Positions 17,911 to 29,028 of a stretch of DNA of 64,000 nucleotides are shown here, piece after piece; position 1 is the stretch's first letter, and each line of letters opens with the position of its first letter. The translations under genes were made by a program, and so were the position numbers. The notes below the pieces were generated by a model that saw only the letters and a program-made list of their open reading frames with translations, did not search any database and was not told the origin of the DNA. The stretch spans positions 93,599 to 157,598 of the forward strand of contig NZ_KB893169.1 in the NCBI RefSeq assembly GCF_000374005.1, written 5' to 3'. The stretch is from Kiloniella laminariae DSM 19542 (GTDB taxonomy: Bacteria; Pseudomonadota; Alphaproteobacteria; Kiloniellales; Kiloniellaceae).

Positions 17911-18453
17911 TCATAAATAGCTATCGAATTTTGTCAGATCTGTAAACCCCGCCGGAAATATTTTTTCTTCTCGGTCCAGCCTAACCGAGATCGTATGAAG
18001 AGCATTAGCATACACAACCCCTGATAAATGCTGGCGTGAGCGCCCGTCTACCCCTTTTATTTTTTTCCACGAGAATCCAAGCATTCTCATGAAGAGAATC
18101 CGACGATTTTTTTCAGGAGCAATCATCATCATCCAGGGAAAAGCTTCTTCAGCCTGTTTGAGTTGACGCGCAGAAGGACGTTGACGGTACGGCTCATCAT
18201 CCACAGCATCGATCAGATCTGTTATCGACCGCACCACCTGAGGCATGGATGATTTTGCCCCAGAAGGCACATCCCGGCTGCTCAATCCCTGAGACATCAG
18301 AGCGGCAATCGCCGACGCCAGAACCCGCTCAACCAGATCAGGAGACCAGACACCATCAAGCACTTCCGCCCGATCTTCAATTCGCCCTCGAACATAAAAC
18401 GGCCTAGCCTGAGGCTTTTCCAAAGGCTTCAGTTCCTCCCACTGCATTACCAC
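17911..18453 (-). CDS. HTH protein, DUF6362-like (possible late regulator)
   Basis: A 180-residue protein, last gene of the minus-strand operon. Near residues 118-150 there is a region RRILFMRMLGFSWKKIKGVDGRSRQHLSGVVYANAL resembling the sigma-like helix-turn-helix of DUF6362 proteins; the central part has the EEAFPWMMMIAPEKN pattern. In alphaproteobacterial prophages such genes sit just upstream of terminase and may control late genes, but that is inference. It overlaps the replication gene by 7 bp. Confidence 0.55.
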   Translation of the reverse strand: MVMQWEELKPLEKPQARPFYVRGRIEDRAEVLDGVWSPDLVERVLASAIAALMSQGLSSRDVPSGAKSSMPQVVRSITDLIDAVDDEPYRQRPSARQLKQAEEAFPWMMMIAPEKNRRILFMRMLGFSWKKIKGVDGRSRQHLSGVVYANALHTISVRLDREEKIFPAGFTDLTKFDSYL

Positions 18454-19994
18454 AATCCCCCGTTTCTTTTTGCCATAACCGTTAACGAATGCATCGCCTG
18501 ATCTATAACCTCTTGCGGGACTTCAAAAGATATCCGTCCCGCCTCCTCCAGCATATCCAGGCAATAACGCGCACGGCTTGCCGGATCTCTTGAGGTCACA
18601 TCACCGATCTTCTGACTTTTCTTGGCCGCAATTGAAAGATACCGCGACTGGGCAAGCACGAGCTCAGAAACGAACTTGTAAACCCCGTAGTGCATCCAGC
18701 CTTCATCAATCCCCTGTTTAAAAAACTCGGATTTACGGAAAACATTCTCGAGATAAGCCTTCTGCCGCGCCTCTGGTGTAGCGACGATCTTCCCCGGCGC
18801 AAGATCCTCACCTTGCGGCTTACGCTTGTATTCAACACCAACACAAGCCCCACGAATAACCCTACTTTCAGGCCACTGTTTGGTTTTGTGACCCATCCGC
18901 ACCCGATCAAAAGCCTCATCGACAACATCAGTCGGGAATTGGCTGAGGTCTCGAATATAATCCTCAAGCAAAAGCCCTGATTCACGATGCAACCCGTCAT
19001 GATCTTTTGCCCCGACAGGCGCAAACCAATGAACACACATCCGACCAAGCGGACCTGTTCCACCCTTGCCCATCAATCGCCTGACATCTTCCAACTCAAC
19101 ACGATCAGATAAACTCAATTTTTCAATCAGGATCACAGGATCAGGCTTCACGCGCCCTCCACTGGCAGCCCTTTGCGGCTTTTCAACCAACTCAACCCTT
19201 GAAGACCTCGCTTTCAGGATTGCTTTGGTAAAATACAGGATTGAATTGATTTTCTCCCCCGCCCTTGCCGCCACATCAGGTACAACCGGATAGATATCTT
19301 TTTCAGGATCACACCCCTGCTCAATCCAGCTCATCACTTCCTGAACAGCGCCATCACCATCAAAATCAAATCCGTCAAAACCGTTACACCTCTCCAGAAC
19401 CTCCTCAGGACTATCAAACTGCGAACGCCGTTCGCTATCTCTGACCCGGCGATTTGCGCTCGCGTCATCAATCTGGTGGTTACTCTGGCGGTTAGAGTCT
19501 TCATTAAAGGCCCGGAAAACTTTTCCGGTAGCTTTGGAAAATCTTTCCGGTAGTGGATCTGGATTTTCTGACTTCTGGAAAATTTTTCCGGTAGTGTTTT
19601 CACCTGTTTCCCGGCTCTCCTCCCGCCCGGATACCTGATCGTTTTCCCGATCCTCTGCCTGATCCCGGACAACAAACGACGATCCAAAACAGGCATCCAG
19701 ATCAAATTCTGGCATCGCCCGCCGATCTGCGCCCCACGCCAGAATATACCCGTTTGAGGTCCTTGAACCCCCGCGACGACGGCGCTCATAGACGGTTACC
19801 AGATCCGACTTGACCAACGCCTCAACATGCGAGCGAACAGACCTGTCAGACATGGACGCCCGACGCGCAAGACTGTCCTGCCCCGGAAAGGCAACACCAT
19901 AGGCATTTGAATAATCTGCAAGCGCCAGCAGTATCAATTTAGGACCTTGAGGTATGGGCAAATCCCACGCCCAGGACATTGCTTCAATCGCCAT
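18447..19994 (-). CDS. Phage replication-type protein with winged-HTH (HTH_36)
   Basis: About 515 residues, started at ATG 19994 behind GGGGGTGTTC. Residues ~5-85 form an HTH_36 domain (GPKLILLALADYSNAYGVAFPGQDSLARRASMSDRSVRSHVEALVKSDLV), as in phage O/DnaD-type initiators. A polar linker follows, then a helical C-terminal region with VVDEAFDRVRMGHKTKQWPE, common in phage replication proteins. It probably loads or starts replication. The linker repeats the phrase TGKIFQKSE / ATGKVFRAFN. Confidence 0.65.
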   Translation of the reverse strand: MAIEAMSWAWDLPIPQGPKLILLALADYSNAYGVAFPGQDSLARRASMSDRSVRSHVEALVKSDLVTVYERRRRGGSRTSNGYILAWGADRRAMPEFDLDACFGSSFVVRDQAEDRENDQVSGREESRETGENTTGKIFQKSENPDPLPERFSKATGKVFRAFNEDSNRQSNHQIDDASANRRVRDSERRSQFDSPEEVLERCNGFDGFDFDGDGAVQEVMSWIEQGCDPEKDIYPVVPDVAARAGEKINSILYFTKAILKARSSRVELVEKPQRAASGGRVKPDPVILIEKLSLSDRVELEDVRRLMGKGGTGPLGRMCVHWFAPVGAKDHDGLHRESGLLLEDYIRDLSQFPTDVVDEAFDRVRMGHKTKQWPESRVIRGACVGVEYKRKPQGEDLAPGKIVATPEARQKAYLENVFRKSEFFKQGIDEGWMHYGVYKFVSELVLAQSRYLSIAAKKSQKIGDVTSRDPASRARYCLDMLEEAGRISFEVPQEVIDQAMHSLTVMAKRNGGLW

Positions 19995-20817
19995 GAACAC
20001 CCCCTATAACCGCTTCTACACAACAGGAAAGCGCATACTGGTACACCCCAGAATTCCGGGACATTGACACCAGCCCACGCCCCTCAAGTGACCTTAACAA
20101 TCGCCGAACCGACCTATCCGTCACCCCGGACAGGTTCGCAATCTGCTCTTGCGTCATAGAACAGTTTCCCCGTCGATCTGCCCGCCGGGCCAAGGCTGTC
20201 AGAACAGCCCTTTCACCTGACGGAACAGGCTGATCCATCGCCCAAAGCAACGCCATAGAAGGCAGACCTTGATCTTGACCCTTTCCGCGAGGGTGAATAT
20301 CCAGCCTTCTTGTTAACTCAGGATCTTTCCGGAGACAGGACACAAGTTTAAGCGCCCCAGCCACACCTTCAGGCGGACTGTCAATCACCTCTCCAATCAC
20401 AAGCGACATACGCAACAACGCCGTTAAGTCATCCATTCGACCGGATTGGGGGATCTCTTTTACAGGCTCTGGAGCAGACATCACCCGAGCACCTGACATC
20501 CAGTCATAAACCCAGCTCGTTACCTGTACCGCAAATTTAGGGGAAAGCCATTGCGCCAGGTGGATTGCCACTTTGGGATGAACCCATGTACCTTGCTCAC
20601 TCGGTACACCACCGCGCCTTGACTGGATGAGCCCCGTTGTGGGATTCCCCATATCGGATTTTAATGCGCTCAAATACTCTCTTGTGGACGATAAACGCCG
20701 ATAGTCAGAAAATAACTTACCCGCCGCACAGCACATCAAAGTTGCACTGATATAACCATCTTCAATACGCTGATTTATTACGGAGTTGGATATTGTATGC
20801 TGTATAAGTCCAGTCAT
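19984..20817 (-). CDS. KilA-N domain protein with C-terminal HTH_36
   Basis: About 277 residues. Residues ~5-120 have the KilA-N features: INQRIEDGYISATLMCCAAGKLFSDYRRL, then GTWVHPKVAIHLAQWLSPKFAVQVTSWVYDW. The C-terminal ~80 residues (AVLTALARRADRRGNCSMTQEQIANLSGVTDRSVRRLLRSLE) are a winged HTH related to the one in the next gene. ATG 20817 has GAGGG seven bases upstream and overlaps the stop of the Ash-like frame (TGATG). KilA-N proteins near C4 RNAs act as antirepressors in P1/P7-like phages. Confidence 0.75.
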   Translation of the reverse strand: MTGLIQHTISNSVINQRIEDGYISATLMCCAAGKLFSDYRRLSSTREYLSALKSDMGNPTTGLIQSRRGGVPSEQGTWVHPKVAIHLAQWLSPKFAVQVTSWVYDWMSGARVMSAPEPVKEIPQSGRMDDLTALLRMSLVIGEVIDSPPEGVAGALKLVSCLRKDPELTRRLDIHPRGKGQDQGLPSMALLWAMDQPVPSGERAVLTALARRADRRGNCSMTQEQIANLSGVTDRSVRRLLRSLEGRGLVSMSRNSGVYQYALSCCVEAVIGGVHGD

Positions 20818-21074
20818 CACGCAGCCCTCTTTGCGGCAGTTAAACAACCGCGACCAAAGGACTTTCGACGCTCCTCTGGCGGCGGGAGGTTCGAAACCTG
20901 CAAAGAGACAGGCGGGTTTATTCCCCTTTCGGGTATTTTATTCACCGCCCTCCCACCATAGGGAGATCCCGGATTCCGGGCACAAAAAAACCACGCTTTC
21001 GGGGTGATTATCCGCTCTCTGAGAGGTTTCGACGCCTCTAAAACAACAGTATCGCCCCTCGACTTATCGGTCAA
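20817..21074 (-). CDS. Ash/Icd-like phage leader protein
   Basis: The frame ending at 20817 encodes RNPGSPYGGRAV preceded by TPKAWFFCA, the signature of the Ash/Icd-like (host division inhibitor-like) family found upstream of antirepressor genes in P4/P1-type systems. The start is uncertain: no ATG is suitable; TTG 21074 is listed, but the same TTGACC could be a -35 box, in which case a later start (GTG 20946 region) is used. It is coupled to the KilA-N gene by TGATG, and the C4 RNA is embedded within it. The frame stays open far upstream, antisense to other genes, which is not thought real. Confidence 0.5.
   Translation of the reverse strand: MTDKSRGDTVVLEASKPLRERIITPKAWFFCARNPGSPYGGRAVNKIPERGINPPVSLQVSNLPPPEERRKSFGRGCLTAAKRAA
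20826..20834 (-). promoter_or_regulatory. KilA-N ribosome binding site, target of C4 loop
   Basis: Coding-strand GCAAAGAGGG includes the GAGGG Shine-Dalgarno of the KilA-N gene. GCAAAGAG (20827-20834) is exactly complementary to CTCTTTGC in the C4-like RNA at 20900-20907. Confidence 0.65.
20880..20975 (-). ncRNA. C4-type antisense RNA
   Basis: The minus strand folds into the C4-like set of hairpins: CTCCC/GGGAG (20950-20965), GGCGG/CCGCC (20911-20949) enclosing CCC-GAAA-GGG, and CCTG/CAGG (20897-20912) whose loop displays TCTCTTTG. That loop plus one base is complementary over 8 nt to the KilA-N Shine-Dalgarno. A second element AGGTTTCGA (20891-20899) is complementary to TCGAAACCT upstream (21024-21032). 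C4 RNAs in P1/P7 are processed from the antirepressor mRNA and block its translation in the same way. The 3' CCTCCCGCC can also pair with GGGAGG. Confidence 0.75.
21046..21074 (-). promoter_or_regulatory. Candidate promoter of the C4/KilA-N operon
   Basis: Minus strand TTGACC (21069-21074) with TACTGT at 17-bp spacing (21046-21051), or GATACT at 15 bp. It would place transcription start just upstream of the first C4-complementary segment, as expected for a C4 transcript. Confidence 0.4.
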
Positions 21075-21155
21075 GCGAGTAAAAGAATGATCTGGACAAC
21101 CATAAACTGAATTGCGACCATCGGGAGAATTTTCAACATTTACACAGGCATCAGT

Positions 21156-22061
21156 ATGCAAATCCTCAGCATCATTCTCCTGCTTCTTTCCGCCTTTTCT
21201 TTTTTTATTGCCATTGTCGGCATTTTTTCCCCCAAACGGGCCCTGCCCAAAGAAGAGAACCCGACCCGGAAAAAAGCCTTTTTCACCTTTTTCGGGATCA
21301 GCTTCGTTACCTTCTTGATTGGCGCTGTTCTCGCTCCGACCGACAACAGCATGCCCAGCCTTACCCCACAGACAGCCACTGAAAACTTGAGCCCGGAAGA
21401 ACAACAGCAAGCCCTGATCACGGAATGGCTGAGCCTGTCCGAACTGAGCCCGGAAGACTACGCAAGGATTTGCCAGAGCGCCCCGGATGGAGCTTATAAA
21501 CAACAGTGCAAAGGCAAGGCTGTGACCTGGTACGGCTTTATCAACGAAGTCGCGGACGTGGATAAACTGGAAGTCAGAGTAGGCCCCGAACACGACAGCA
21601 AAGCCTTTGATCTGGACCTGATCAACGACCTTGACGCCTCCGAACCTCTTGAGCGCTTCAAGGATCAAAAAATCCTTTTCCGGGCCGTGGTTGATTCCAA
21701 TTCCGGGTTTGATCACGACCTTGATCAAGGAACATTCATCACCGTCGCCTTGACCAACGAAGAATCTGAAGCCATCCTGCAGGAACAGGAAGCCGCTAAG
21801 ATCAAGCTGGAGCAGACAGATACATTTATTACGGAACATATTGAGTGCCGAAAGCAGTTCAAGGCTAACGCCAACCACCCCTCGACCGTAGATTTTCCGC
21901 TTGTGGATCTGTACCACGCCTCTGAAATAATCGAAGACGGATCGCACATTATTCAAGGAAGCGCTTCGGCAAAAAACTCTTTCAACACCGAGCTTGAGTT
22001 TACCTATCAGTGCATTTTCAAAGACCAGCAGTTTGTGACCATTAACATCCGCGAAAAATAA
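21156..22061 (+). CDS. Uncharacterised membrane protein, prophage cargo
   Basis: A 301-residue protein not recognised as a known family. Two hydrophobic segments at residues ~2-24 and ~41-60 separated by a basic loop (SPKRALPKEENPTRKK) anchor a large soluble domain. The soluble part has SPEDYARICQSAPDGAYKQQCKGKAVTWYGFINEVA, suggesting an OB-like fold (growth of the type TWYGFV...V), and a second part with IECRKQF...CIFKDQQFVTINIRE. It is transcribed against both flanking phage operons, so it may be a lysogeny-expressed moron. Function unknown. Confidence 0.7.
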   Translation: MQILSIILLLLSAFSFFIAIVGIFSPKRALPKEENPTRKKAFFTFFGISFVTFLIGAVLAPTDNSMPSLTPQTATENLSPEEQQQALITEWLSLSELSPEDYARICQSAPDGAYKQQCKGKAVTWYGFINEVADVDKLEVRVGPEHDSKAFDLDLINDLDASEPLERFKDQKILFRAVVDSNSGFDHDLDQGTFITVALTNEESEAILQEQEAAKIKLEQTDTFITEHIECRKQFKANANHPSTVDFPLVDLYHASEIIEDGSHIIQGSASAKNSFNTELEFTYQCIFKDQQFVTINIREK

Positions 22062-22101
22062 TCGGAACTGAGAAAACACACTCCCACAACCCGGAACCGC
22101 C

Positions 22102-22410
22102 ATGACAAAAAAAATATTCACAGATAAAGACATTGAACAATGGGAGCGTGATCTATTTGAAAACACCCCCCCGCCTATCGAAGAAATTACCCTACCCGAC
22201 TTTTCACAGCCGAAGACCTTCAGAGCCTCAGCCGCAACTACAGGAATAGTCATAAGCACAATCAACCGAGACGGAAATACAACTAACCTTTTTCTTAACC
22301 CAGTCATCGCCAAATACCTGATCCACACGATTGCCATGCAAGGGCAAGAAGCAGGTTGGCTAAACGAAAAGCTGGAAATTATATCCCCTGATTTACTCCT
22401 CAATTCCTGA
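22102..22410 (+). CDS. Hypothetical 102-residue protein
   Basis: A plausible small gene 41 bp after the membrane protein gene and before hicA. The protein is acidic, with a polar N-terminus (TDKDIEQWERDLFENTPPPIEEI) and a C-terminal part (FLNPVIAKYLIHTIAMQGQEAGWLNEKLEII) that looks like a compact helical domain. No family recognised. Confidence 0.55.
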   Translation: MTKKIFTDKDIEQWERDLFENTPPPIEEITLPDFSQPKTFRASAATTGIVISTINRDGNTTNLFLNPVIAKYLIHTIAMQGQEAGWLNEKLEIISPDLLLNS

Positions 22411-22430
22411 GCTTGTAAATAAATACCCCA

Positions 22431-22481
22431 CACACCATTACACACTTTTATTATTGACAAGTGTGTAATGGTGTGTAATAT
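22431..22481 (+). promoter_or_regulatory. hicAB promoter with palindromic operator
   Basis: A perfect 17-bp inverted repeat: CACACCATTACACACTT at 22431-22447 and its complement at 22459-22475, spacer 11 bp. The -35 box TTGACA (22454-22459) overlaps the spacer and right arm, and the -10 box TAATAT (22476-22481) follows at 16-bp spacing. HicB-type repressor binding here would block RNA polymerase. hicA starts 34 bp downstream. Confidence 0.85.
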
Positions 22482-22514
22482 TGTCTTTATCAACAACGCA
22501 AACGGAGACACAAC

Positions 22515-22703
22515 ATGAACAGTAGACAGGTTATCAAGCTTCTCAAAAAAGAAGGTTGGTACCATGTCAAAACTGCCGGGGACCATTTCCACTTTAAACA
22601 TCCGACCATTAAAGGGAAAATAACAGTCACCCACCCGATTAAAGACCTTTCGATAGGCGTTATCAAAAACCTCGAAAGAGTCACTGGCCTCAGCCTCCGT
22701 TAA
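22515..22703 (+). CDS. hicA: HicA toxin (mRNA interferase)
   Basis: A 62-residue HicA: MNSRQVIKLLKKEGWYHVKTAGDHFHFKHP with the likely catalytic His24, then KITVTHPIKDLSIGVIKNLERVTGL. HicA has a double-stranded RNA-binding-like fold and cleaves mRNA when free of HicB. Length and motif are normal. It has its own strong promoter/operator and is followed 66 bp later by hicB. In a prophage it would stabilise the lysogen or limit superinfection. Confidence 0.92.
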   Translation: MNSRQVIKLLKKEGWYHVKTAGDHFHFKHPTIKGKITVTHPIKDLSIGVIKNLERVTGLSLR

Positions 22704-22769
22704 TTCGGAGGCTGAGTAAGCCGCCCCCGGTAACTGTTCAGATGGCGTCACATAAAGGAAAAAATAAAA

Positions 22770-23162
22770 ATGGCTGAAAATGAACTCTATCCAGCCCTGA
22801 TCGATAAACAAAAAAATAGCGATTTCGGGGTTACTTTTCCCGATTTTCCCGGCTGCGTGACAGCGGGCAGTACAGCAAAAGAAGCCCTCGACATGGCACA
22901 TAAAGCCCTTGCCGGCCACATTGCTTTTATGGCTGAGGACGGCGATGAAATTCCCACCCCCAGCGCAATAGAAGATATCGCAAAAGAGGACCTTAAAGAC
23001 ATCCTGTTCATCTCTATGATTGAGGTGACAATGCCTGGTCGCCCGAAACGGGTAAACGTGATGCTTGACGAAGGACTTATTTCGAGGATCGATAACGCGA
23101 GCAAAAACAGAAGCGCCTTTCTTGCTGAAGCCGCTCGGGAAAAGCTCGCTCGATCCGCCTAG
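22770..23162 (+). CDS. hicB: HicB antitoxin
   Basis: A 130-residue HicB: an N-terminal degenerate RNase-H-like domain (YPALIDKQKNSDFGVTFPDFPGCVTAGSTAKEALDMAHKALAGHIAFM) and a C-terminal ribbon-helix-helix-type DNA-binding tail (RPKRVNVMLDEGLISRIDNASKNRSAFLAEAAREKL). It neutralises HicA and represses the operon through the 17-bp palindrome upstream. Starts behind AAAGGA. Confidence 0.92.
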   Translation: MAENELYPALIDKQKNSDFGVTFPDFPGCVTAGSTAKEALDMAHKALAGHIAFMAEDGDEIPTPSAIEDIAKEDLKDILFISMIEVTMPGRPKRVNVMLDEGLISRIDNASKNRSAFLAEAAREKLARSA

Positions 23163-23177
23163 CGCTTCACGACCGAC

Positions 23178-23215
23178 AACACCGCCCCGCCAACCGGCGC
23201 GGGCGGTGTTTTCTT
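23178..23215 (+). terminator. hicAB terminator
   Basis: A 10-bp stem AACACCGCCC/GGGCGGTGTT with an inner CGCC/GGCG stem in the loop, followed by TTCTT. It lies 15 bp after hicB and just before the end of the converging minus-strand operon (stop at 23225), which it may also serve. Confidence 0.8.
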
Positions 23216-23224
23216 GACTGGTCA

Positions 23225-23632
23225 TCACTGAAGCGCCCCCCGGCCAAAGTGACCTTTGGGCAAGACAAGCAAAAGCTCGCCTTTTTCGTCTATTGTATGT
23301 TCAAGCCGGAGCTGGCTGAGCTTCTTGTTTTTTAGTTCACGTGGATAGTTATTGACGTGGATACGGTAAAAGCGGCTCTTGGCCTGCGCCTTCAGTTGCC
23401 AGCCTTTTTTCTGATCAGGGATCACCCTCAAATAACCCTTGTCCTCACCCTCGCCCCAGGAAAGGCGAAGCTTTGACCCCTCCTCCAGACCAAGTTCATC
23501 CACAAGCTGCCGCCCAAACGAAAAGACATAAAGCGCCTTGCCCGAAGATGTGATCTGGGAGTAAAGCGCCACACCGTCCTCTGAGCAGGTTGAAAACTGA
23601 CTGCCTTCTGGCAGATATTCAGAAAAAGACAT
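23225..23632 (-). CDS. Hypothetical phage protein, two-part beta fold
   Basis: A 135-residue protein, last gene of the CII-like operon. First half: ALYVFSFGRQLVDELGLEEGSKLRLSWGEGEDKGYLRVIPD; second half: SRFYRIHVNNYPRELKNKKLSQLRLEHTIDEKGELLLVLP. Each half looks like a small swapped-hairpin (AbrB-like) strand-helix-strand unit, and the same layout is seen in the 23887-24291 protein of the same operon. No firm family; a DNA-binding role is possible. Confidence 0.6.
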   Translation of the reverse strand: MSFSEYLPEGSQFSTCSEDGVALYSQITSSGKALYVFSFGRQLVDELGLEEGSKLRLSWGEGEDKGYLRVIPDQKKGWQLKAQAKSRFYRIHVNNYPRELKNKKLSQLRLEHTIDEKGELLLVLPKGHFGRGALQ

Positions 23633-25733: not shown

Positions 25734-25816
25734 CACAAATGTCAAAAAAGAAGCTATACTTGACGGAATACGGAAAAGAATTATTCCTGACGCCACACAA
25801 TACAGGCGACCTGACA

Positions 25817-26248
25817 ATGGACCTTCACGAAAACCTTAAATCTAATATAGAGCGCTATCTCGACAGCAAAGGCCTGGGTAAAAAAGCCTTCGCCAGAGAA
25901 GCCGGGCTCAAAGAACAGGTCGTCATACGTATCCTAAATGACGTCACCGCCAATCCCCGTGTAGATACGGCAGCAGCCCTCGCCAGATGCATCGGCACAT
26001 CAATAGATAAGCTTTTGGGGATTGATACCATTGACCAACCTGCCGATCCCATTCTCTATATTGATATGGGTGCAGCCTTCATCAACACTCTCAAACTCGA
26101 GAATATTGACCTTCACCCCAAAGACCAGATGAAGATCCTTCTTGAAATACAGAAGATGTGTAATGAAGAGAAATACCGCCAGCAACCAGAGCTGATTGTT
26201 GCCGAGACAGGTGGCATGATTCGCATGATATCCAATAAAGACAACTAG
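25817..26248 (+). CDS. CI-like lysogeny repressor (XRE HTH)
   Basis: About 143 residues from ATG 25817; an in-frame ATG at 25739 would add 26 residues but no domain. The HTH is residues ~4-60 (LKSNIERYLDSKGLGKKAFAREAGLKEQVVIRILNDVTANPRVDTAAALARCIG). The C-terminal part is short, with no Ser-Lys LexA-type autoprotease motif visible, so induction would not be by RecA-stimulated self-cleavage. It is divergent from the cro-like gene across the palindromic operator. Confidence 0.75.
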   Translation: MDLHENLKSNIERYLDSKGLGKKAFAREAGLKEQVVIRILNDVTANPRVDTAAALARCIGTSIDKLLGIDTIDQPADPILYIDMGAAFINTLKLENIDLHPKDQMKILLEIQKMCNEEKYRQQPELIVAETGGMIRMISNKDN

Positions 26249-27551: not shown

Positions 27552-27694
27552 GCAACAGCTTCACATCCTATTGCATCCGCCGTCACGCTGAAGCGGTCAA
27601 AATAATCACCGACACCACAACCACGGCACAGCTTCGAGCAACAGCATGGCGCTTTCTGAAGCAGTACAGGAACGACGAAAGGTTGCCTTCATGA
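27548..27694 (+). CDS. Small coupled ORF before the ParB-like gene
   Basis: A 48-codon frame (MSNSFTSYCIRRHAEAV start, RNDERLPS end). It overlaps the previous stop (ATGA at 27548) and its own stop overlaps the ParB-like start (ATGA at 27691), so it fits exactly into a chain of coupled genes. The protein is short and basic-helical (AQLRATAWRFLKQYRN). Confidence 0.5.
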   Translation: MSNSFTSYCIRRHAEAVKIITDTTTTAQLRATAWRFLKQYRNDERLPS

Positions 27695-29028
27695 CACTTG
27701 CCGAACGCATTAACAACCGCTGCGCTGAACTCGATATCAAACCGACTGATCTTTACAAATTTGCGGGAATTGCCAGAACCAGCACCCAGGAAATTTTAAG
27801 CGGCAAAAGAGCGATGCCGGGAGCCGATAAACTGGCCGCAATCGCCAAAGCCCTTAACACCAGCGTTAACGCCCTGCTTGAACTGGAAGAGCACCAACAA
27901 ACAGAAGCCACTCCAGGCAACCTCTGTTTTATCGCGCCAATGGACATTCTGCCGAACCCGGCAAACCCCAGAAGTGCCATGAACCCGGAAAGCCTCGAGG
28001 AACTCGCAGACAATATTTTACAACACGGCTTAATGCAAAATCTGGTTGTTTGCGATCAACCGGACAAAAATGGCAACTTCCTGCTTATCTCCGGACACCG
28101 CAGACTTGCCGCGATTGAGCGCCTTCTGGCAAGAGGCCAGTGGCCCAACACCCGCCACCCCGATGGAAAGGTTCTCTGTCTCAAACAACAGGCAGATGAA
28201 CAGGAACGGCTGGTCTTTGCTCTTCTGGAAAATCTTCAGCGCGAAGACCCCAAGCCCATTGATGAGGCAAACGCGCTGCAACAGCTTGTAAATTCAGGCT
28301 GGAGCACCAACAAGATAGCCGAGCAGATCAACAAAACGGTTAGATGGGTACAACTGCGCATCGCCCTGCTCAATCTAGAAAGCAGCACTCAGGCAGCAAT
28401 AGCAAACGGCACCCTCAGCGCAGCCAAGGCCCGCGCTCTCAACGGCACAGACGAAGAGACCCAAAAGAAACTTGTCAAAGCCGTCCAGGACGACGACCCA
28501 AGAGCCAAAACCGAAAAAGCTCTCCGGGAACTCAGAAACAACCTTGAGACACCTGAACCTCTACCAACACCTTCAATGAAAGAGCCCGAAGGGGTAACGG
28601 ACAACAATATGCCAAGTGAAATTTTGATATCTCAGGTTGTGGGAAAATTATCGGAAGATTTCACCATGTGCCTTCGCCTCTTAACTCTGGCGCTATTGGA
28701 AAGTTCATCTCAATTCCAGCTTAAACCCGGCTTGCCATCACGCATGAAGACCACTGCCGGAATGCGCGATGAACACCATACATATTTTGCAGGACAAATC
28801 GGCAATCTTTGGCATGAGTACGTATTCCTAAAGTGCCAAGACACAGAGGACGGCCCAAGCAGAGGACAACAGTTCCAAGGCCTCGACTACCTCCACCTCA
28901 CCGACCTGAAAGTTCTCTTCACTCAACTCGTCGCGCTTCGCATCGGACCAGGACAGAACCGGACTGATTTCGAGTTTCTCTACCTGCTCGCCGACCACTA
29001 CACACTAAGAAAAGAGCCTTCAGAATGA
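27691..29028 (+). CDS. XRE-HTH and ParB-domain fusion protein
   Basis: About 445 residues. Residues 1-65 are an XRE-type HTH (LAERINNRCAELDIKPTDLYKFAGIARTSTQEILSGKR). A ParB N-terminal domain follows at ~79-190: DILPNPANPRS, LEELADNILQHGLMQNLVV, SGHRRLAA (GHRR at 135-138, the CTP-binding box) and ENLQRED (180-186); then a ParB-type HTH (STNKIAEQINKTVRWVQLRIALL). The last ~150 residues are unknown. ATG 27691 is chosen because it makes the ATGA overlap. No partner ParA is present, so it is more likely a regulator or nucleoid/replication factor than a partition system. Confidence 0.8.
   Translation: MTLAERINNRCAELDIKPTDLYKFAGIARTSTQEILSGKRAMPGADKLAAIAKALNTSVNALLELEEHQQTEATPGNLCFIAPMDILPNPANPRSAMNPESLEELADNILQHGLMQNLVVCDQPDKNGNFLLISGHRRLAAIERLLARGQWPNTRHPDGKVLCLKQQADEQERLVFALLENLQREDPKPIDEANALQQLVNSGWSTNKIAEQINKTVRWVQLRIALLNLESSTQAAIANGTLSAAKARALNGTDEETQKKLVKAVQDDDPRAKTEKALRELRNNLETPEPLPTPSMKEPEGVTDNNMPSEILISQVVGKLSEDFTMCLRLLTLALLESSSQFQLKPGLPSRMKTTAGMRDEHHTYFAGQIGNLWHEYVFLKCQDTEDGPSRGQQFQGLDYLHLTDLKVLFTQLVALRIGPGQNRTDFEFLYLLADHYTLRKEPSE

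Follow-up and report, generated by a model that had tools for sequence, protein, structure and literature searches.

In the genome of Kiloniella laminariae DSM 19542, a stretch of 64,000 nucleotides (nt) (hereafter the window, i.e., the whole of the DNA analysed) carries on its minus strand a KilA-N gene preceded by a short structured RNA, and the question raised by this locus is to which family this RNA belongs and in which way it may act upon the gene behind it. An original prediction considered it a C4-type antisense RNA which, with the help of duplicated target sites, would control the KilA-N gene. The mechanism proposed there is well supported, while the family name is not supported: the 85-nt RNA is very probably a phage-immunity-type antisense RNA working like C4 of P1/P7 and CI of P4, but belonging to the sRNA-Xcc1 family.

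An sRNA-Xcc1 RNA and the sites around it

In an Rfam search of the whole 64-kb window, the sole match above gathering score was sRNA-Xcc1 (RF02221) at 20957-20873 (-), with 71.5 bits (gathering score 53), an E-value of 5e-11 and full-length coverage of model positions 1-87. By this curated cut-off, the window RNA is a clear member of the sRNA-Xcc1 family; the source genome holds one RF02221 match at E <=0.001, and a covariance model (R1) that counts the window RNA among its own building sequences gives it 95.7 bits. The C4 covariance model (RF01695), which the original prediction had proposed to run here, found no match within 20700-21200 at E up to 10, and neither did the isrK model (RF01394) in the same interval and at the same limit. 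C4 membership of the window RNA was rejected. The letters and coordinates named in the prediction are all present. Read in the direction of transcription (21074 to 20817, minus strand), the locus comprises the leader hairpin, CAGAGAG-CGG, a weak hairpin with 7 T, the 85-nt RNA, TCGAAA, GCAAAGAG and the KilA-N start, with the following features:

21022..21039, minus strand: leader hairpin AGAGG-CGTCGAAA-CCTCT, the loop of which displays the linker target, an arrangement common in relatives
21015..21021, minus strand: CAGAGAG, the upstream loop site, able to pair with the loop if one wobble is allowed, predicted duplex of -8.3 kcal/mol for a hand-chosen segment
20984..21008, minus strand: weak terminator-like hairpin of 5 pairs (one of them G-T) with 7 T behind it, located downstream of the leader target and upstream of the RNA, read from the letters
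20873..20957, minus strand: sRNA-Xcc1 family RNA (RF02221) of 85 nt, with the outer stem P1, P2 with CCCGAAAGGG, the antisense hairpin P3 and the linker
20900..20907, minus strand: first antisense segment CTCTTTGC, i.e., P3 loop and 3' edge, with its exact complement at the KilA-N Shine-Dalgarno (SD) sequence and a scan peak in relatives
20891..20896, minus strand: second antisense segment, the linker TTTCGA, with complements at 21032-21027 and 20868-20863, covarying in relatives
20863..20868, minus strand: downstream linker target TCGAAA, predicted duplex of -5.5 kcal/mol
20827..20834, minus strand: downstream loop target GCAAAGAG, exact complement of CTCTTTGC, overlapping the KilA-N SD

The downstream loop target, which bears out the claimed complementarity between the loop and the KilA-N SD, ends 6 nt 5' of GTG 20820 and 9 nt 5' of ATG 20817, and its duplex with the loop is predicted at -13.1 kcal/mol (RNAduplex). 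For the window alone, the chance of a loop match of at least 8 nt within 160 nt is about 1% as estimated by swapped flanks. Both copies of TCGAAA (21032-21027 and 20868-20863) sit inside a repeated 9-mer, GCGTCGAAA, found as announced at 21027-21035 and 20863-20871. The window RNA is thus flanked on either side by a copy of its putative target, the downstream copy lying at the KilA-N SD. Respective to the duplication of targets, the linker sites are present on both sides and the downstream loop site is exact, while the upstream loop copy pairs only with wobble.

Complementarity and compensatory change in relatives

Relatives of the locus were drawn from (i) an Rfam search of class and family genomes, (ii) KilA-N similarity in viral contigs, (iii) similarity in phage and E. 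coli records, and (iv) the core pattern in genome and viral contigs (among the matches listed). A covariance model from 17 RNAs yielded 353 RNAs in 361 sources (the window and L002-L361; locus L001, being the window itself, is not counted separately), from which 22 with less than 200 nt of flank or an unreadable P3 and 69 near duplicates were withdrawn, leaving 262 non-redundant loci. The complement of an 11-nt P3 segment was sought within 160 nt downstream and 250 nt upstream of each RNA, with swapped flanks and shuffled own flanks as controls; for the linker, the complement of a 6-mer was sought before the loop target, the control being swapped loci with another linker.

A loop complement of at least 7 nt occurs downstream in 118/262 loci (4.7% with swapped flanks, 5.7% with the shuffled own flank) and upstream in 200/262 (6.3% and 8.7%, respectively), against 6/262 downstream and 12/262 upstream for a control segment of the RNA. 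When each 7-mer along the RNA was tested in turn, complementarity peaked mainly in two places: the P3 loop reached 31.7% in the downstream and 42.7% in the upstream scan, and the linker together with the P3 3' edge reached up to 14.1% and 36.3%, respectively. Most other positions remained at 0-4%. The linker 6-mer finds its complement just before the loop target in 190/239 leaders and at 76/118 downstream sites, as compared with 1.1 and 1.3% after swapping. As regards position, a start codon opening at least 60 codons lies within 22 nt in 104/118 downstream cases against 31/100 loci with a match of 5 nt or less, the median spacing from target to start codon is 9 nt, and 108 of the 114 downstream cases with a usable start have an SD-like motif, in a broad definition, that overlaps with the target or adjoins it. 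The helices themselves covary, since 19/23 pairs vary on both sides over 94 distinct rows, with a score of 0.509 vs 0.164 when shuffled, in an alignment that was fitted to the structure. For the family as a whole, the predicted pairing between loop and flank is beyond chance. That an inverted duplication, a biased composition or shared descent would make the flanks look like complements has a next to negligible probability: the relatives do share ancestry and many were found by an exact core pattern, but the swapped, shuffled and control-segment tests are all low, 104 different P3 11-mers occur among the 118 downstream cases, and the position before the start codon is fixed.

An alignment of the closest relatives over the stretch between leader and start codon shows homologous KilA-N genes (44% identity to the window protein in L037, 51% in L004 and 53% in L035) with differing code words, as follows:

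Window: loop/SD CTCTTTGC/GCAAAGAG, linker TTTCGA
L004/L036: loop/SD CTCTTTTC/GAAAAGAG, linker TTCTAA
L035: loop/SD CGTACA/TGTACG, linker TTTTGA
L037: loop/SD CTCTCGA/TCGAGAG, linker TTTCGA

In all of them, the leader and downstream sites match the code words of the locus with few exceptions, i.e., the wobble in the window leader, the leader loop match of L004 and of L037, which is shorter by one base, and a single terminal base in the downstream linker site of L035. The matched changes at leader, RNA and SD are best read as compensatory change between loop and target, the very kind of change that had been proposed for verification in related prophages. Together with the family-wide complementarity tests, it lends strong support to the antisense mechanism with duplicated targets beside KilA-N.

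Proposed mechanism and its alternatives

The structure of the RNA, both complementarities, their co-variation in relatives and the position before the start codon are observed features, around which the following course of events can be proposed. A single transcript would cover the leader (target copy 1 and, behind it, the terminator-like hairpin) and the RNA, as well as target copy 2 together with the KilA-N operon, and the RNA would be excised from this transcript, as C4 is. Acting in trans, the P3 loop and linker would pair with target copy 2 and cover the SD, such that the KilA-N gene and the overlapping replication initiator would stay untranslated in the lysogen, while pairing with target copy 1 would favour early termination. 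Alternatively, this pairing may allow the short leader RNA to titrate away the antisense RNA upon induction (cf. IsrK and anrP). The window RNA would in this manner control the KilA-N gene by repression and take part in immunity.

Several points weigh against this proposal. Kinship is only partly removed by the redundancy filter and the relatives are not independent. Folded as a lone sequence, the window RNA surpasses shuffled versions by a modest margin only (z -1.97), and the P2 of the family is absent from its minimum-energy fold. No sigma-70-like promoter was found in 20700-21400, and a promoter and terminator scan of the window region detected nothing; the terminator-like hairpin of the window scores below the thresholds of both terminator tests. 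The strict complement test misses the upstream loop site CAGAGAG of the window (the longest match, of 5 nt, being elsewhere), and in a wobble-tolerant search the best run in the window leader also falls elsewhere than the hand-chosen duplex segment. Across relatives, a lesser rise of 5-8% appears without explanation at the 3' tail of the RNA in the downstream scan, and three rarer linkers never matched upstream by the 6-mer rule, namely CTAGTT (0/6), AGTTGA (0/6) and CAGTTG (0/4), for which the linker was perhaps cut at the wrong place. No downstream match above 5 nt exists in 100/262 loci, 90 of them having the upstream target only. Lastly, the pairing could act in cis.

In such a cis arrangement, the unreleased RNA would fold onto its own mRNA and hide the SD until movement of the leader or ribosome frees it. 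The RNA and its downstream target do lie on the same strand of the window, 38 nt apart, but discrete RNAs of about 88-89 nt have been reported for the family (PMC2996969; PMC5331693), and C4, with a similar layout, is described as processed and acting on target mRNAs (PMC5320573); we consider this possibility improbable. The founding sRNA-Xcc1 measured 88 nt by RACE and about 100 nt on Northern blots (PMC2996969), and an 89-nt sRNA-Xcc1 with many reads stands, in one table row, under non-coding RNAs of low ribosomal coverage (PMC5331693).

Attenuation in the leader has more in its favour and can be held as possible, if doubtful. As in P4 CI-seqA, upstream pairing would there cause early termination, and the SD match would be secondary; P4 CI binds seqA, leading to an early end of transcription, and so acts by leader attenuation (PMC10111431). 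The upstream target is the commoner one (239/262 loci at 6 nt or more), a hairpin and T run stand between leader target and RNA in 96/149 loci with both targets and in 43/90 upstream-only loci (4.3 and 3.7% when shuffled), and 197 of the 214 leaders with a linker complement present it within the loop of a hairpin (14.3% when shuffled). Against it, the SD-side match reaches at least 7 nt in 50/81 and at least 6 nt in 69/81 of the viral contigs obtained from the pattern (among the matches listed) and is precisely placed, while in the window the SD duplex (-13.1 kcal/mol) is predicted to be stronger than the leader duplex (-8.3 kcal/mol) and the terminator is weak.

As 90 of the 262 loci are upstream-only, blocking of the SD is not universal, even if some of these loci resemble near misses by eye (L206, L230, L269 and L335). 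In L119, L132, L158, L189, L394 and other Xanthomonadales loci, the leader target is conserved and often accompanied by a terminator, an SD target is lacking, and XAC0095-family or symE-like genes follow. Ten Xanthomonas genomes, one Rhodanobacter genome and one Lysobacter genome carry 1-13 sRNA-Xcc1 copies each; among the 60 copies read (60 of the 63 listed places in those 12 genomes, duplicates kept and part of them shared with the 262 loci), 58/60 have the linker site in the leader, 2/60 within 160 nt downstream and 6/60 within 1200 nt downstream. All three scanned proteins (3/3) match the XAC0095 family. A symE-like sequence was seen in 13 loci including L214, with about 30% identity in the others and some places fetched twice; in L214, where symE is directly downstream, the linker complement is present and the loop match is imperfect by eye. 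The cassette of symE with sRNA-Xcc1 is reported as the most widespread Xanthomonas integron cassette (PMC12444791). Two further ideas were tried and found no support. For blocking of the symE SD by the integron copies, none of the 6 copies with a linker site within 1200 nt has a symE-like match, and for guarding in trans against other phages by upstream-only RNAs, a matching downstream target elsewhere in this set was seen for 4/90 at k=7 (null mean 6.9) and 0/90 at k=8 (null 2.0).

Regulation in trans of host virulence genes, as proposed for the sRNA-Xcc1 of Xanthomonas and Xylella, is a most unlikely function for the window RNA. It draws on positive control by HrpG/HrpX and on lists of predicted targets (PMC12189769; PMC2996969), but these published targets are computational predictions, and the conserved complementarity is to the flanks of the RNA itself, phage genomes included. 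In some hosts, sRNA-Xcc1 may have a second role.

Known systems, genes behind the RNA and meaning for the family

The antisense RNA proposed here closely resembles C4 in layout. C4 (RF01695) loci show the same order of parts, i.e., leader sites, an RNA with P3 loop and linker, a linker site after the RNA and a loop site before the start. In seven C4 loci (L051-L057), exact 7-mers were found for the downstream loop in 6/7, the downstream linker in 6/7, the upstream loop in 5/7 and the upstream linker in 5/7, all four sites being present in 3/7 (L051, L052 and L057). Unlike this order of parts, the models do not meet: no covariance-model match was obtained between C4 and sRNA-Xcc1 in either direction where tried, P2 differs in that the AUACAA/GGGGAAUA internal loop belongs to sRNA-Xcc1, and C4 is in clan CL00128 whereas sRNA-Xcc1 is in no clan. 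As such, sRNA-Xcc1 looks like a C4/CI-type design carried by a separate family. RF02221 (at E <=0.001) occurs in 47/385 class genomes, 8 of them above the curated cut-off, and RF01695 in 4/385, all above the cut-off, a frequency which speaks for antisense control with two sites and duplicated targets being common; in the family genomes, RF02221 is present in 5/23, all above the curated cut-off.

With P4 CI/seqA (isrK, RF01394), the locus has in common a leader with a target of the RNA, and the upstream-only class resembles the CI-seqA system as presented in PMC10111431; unlike the latter, the window has a second target at the SD. The isrK model gave no match at 20700-21200 of the window or in the five sRNA-Xcc1 loci to which it was applied. 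Relatives of CI and seqA are reported to be recognised by the Rfam profiles of C4 and isrK (PMC10111431), and a short IsrK ending at its own terminator to activate a downstream anti-repressor in trans (PMC4825925). Directly upstream of C4 in L051, L052, L053, L055 and L057, isrK-like matches of 31-45 bits (gathering score 50) were found, and isrK looks like the C4 leader. The sar RNA of P22 shares antisense control of an antirepressor, duplicated targets going unmentioned in the consulted portion of that source (PMC12197685). In the publications seen in part, sRNA-Xcc1 is presented as integron-borne and virulence-linked (Xanthomonas, Xylella, Aeromonas), with no mechanism assigned, and C4 and sRNA-Xcc1 stand in one table in PMC12189769 and PMC12370729. 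In the excerpts of the sRNA-Xcc1 literature that were searched, no link of the family mechanism to C4 or antirepressors was found, and our claim of novelty reaches no further than these.

The gene behind the RNA often appears antirepressor-like. Among the products of loci with a downstream match of at least 6 nt (138/159 scanned against Pfam), there are Bro-N (31), KilA-N (20), Rha (15), P22_AR_C (14), AntA (13), ORF6N (9) and P22_AR_N (8), one protein possibly counting several times; for upstream-only loci (68 scanned of 87), the corresponding figures are P22_AR_N 2, Bro-N 2, KilA-N 1 and HTH_3 4. An annotated antirepressor gene follows immediately upon the RNA in Haemophilus phage Aaphi23 (ant), Escherichia phage Rac-SA53 (ant) and Bordetella phage IFTN1. 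A Burkholderiales-2 cis-regulatory RNA (RF02917, 94.1 bits) is also present in Bordetella phage vB_BaM-IFTN1 (L048:135-208, minus strand).

Two sRNA-Xcc1 RNAs about 0.24-0.94 kb apart occur in one phage or prophage stretch in nine cases (L046, L272, L301, L303, L318, L322, L328, L339 and L358), which suggests tandem modules. Dispersed copies are seen in one genome with 11 (G094: L006, L060, L062, L063, L065, L068, L073, L077, L078, L084 and L099) and another with 10 (G291: L013, L064, L066, L067, L069, L070, L071, L074, L075 and L086), with many different loops.

In the window, the genes downstream of the RNA are the following:

19984..20817, minus strand: KilA-N gene with ATG start (GTG 20820 also possible), matching PF04383 (E 6.2e-23), PF13730 (E 3.4e-8) and phrog_270 (E 1.2e-7)
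18447..20000, minus strand: gene of an O-like replication initiator that shares an overlap with the KilA-N gene at the end of the latter, matching phrog_1032 (E 1.4e-18)

The KilA-N profile (PF04383) gives the product 81.1 bits against a curated cut-off of 23.8; its N-terminal KilA-N domain is followed at the C-terminus by a winged helix resembling those of replication initiators in phages. For the N-terminal part, there is a further match to BstA, an abortive-infection family (phrog_6287, E 3.1e-12). Beyond the O-like gene lie terminase genes (PF20454/PF05876). Given the overlapping replication initiator behind KilA-N, the window RNA may control replication and not an antirepressor alone. Of the cI/cro switch that had been claimed for the prophage, the repressor part is borne out by a repressor-like gene at 25739-26248 (+), with HTH_3 (E 1.4e-6) and phage repressor PHROGs. 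At 27646-29028 (+), the window encodes a ParB-like protein whose N-terminus bears a helix-turn-helix of the Cro/CI type.

An icd-like frame coupled to the target gene is a feature of C4; in the window, an open frame before KilA-N stops at a TGA overlapping ATG 20817, but it matches no family. The Ash/Icd-like frame with RNPGSPYGG announced by the original prediction exists as an open frame, with no family match in Pfam or PHROG, and the reading as an Ash/Icd protein found no support. The RNPGSPYGG peptide comes from an 803-codon open frame at 20817-23228 (-), antisense to the frame 21156-22061 (+), which looks like a chance frame; the frame 20820-21161 has no Pfam or PHROG match, Phage_ASH (PF10554) included. 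A genome search with PF10554 (0/385 genomes) is uninformative, its controls being equally silent.

For the family, these observations would provide a directly testable mechanism for an Rfam family so far discussed as a possible virulence factor. A wider proposal, on which our judgement is evenly divided, is that sRNA-Xcc1 constitutes, next to P1 C4 and P4 CI, a third widespread family of phage immunity RNAs, with about a hundred specificities of loop and linker, the leader-only integron and chromosomal copies of Xanthomonadales having been domesticated to gate XAC0095/symE cassettes by leader attenuation. If true, the published virulence role of sRNA-Xcc1 would be indirect. The pair formed by loop and linker is a readable specificity code, which might predict which prophages silence one another.
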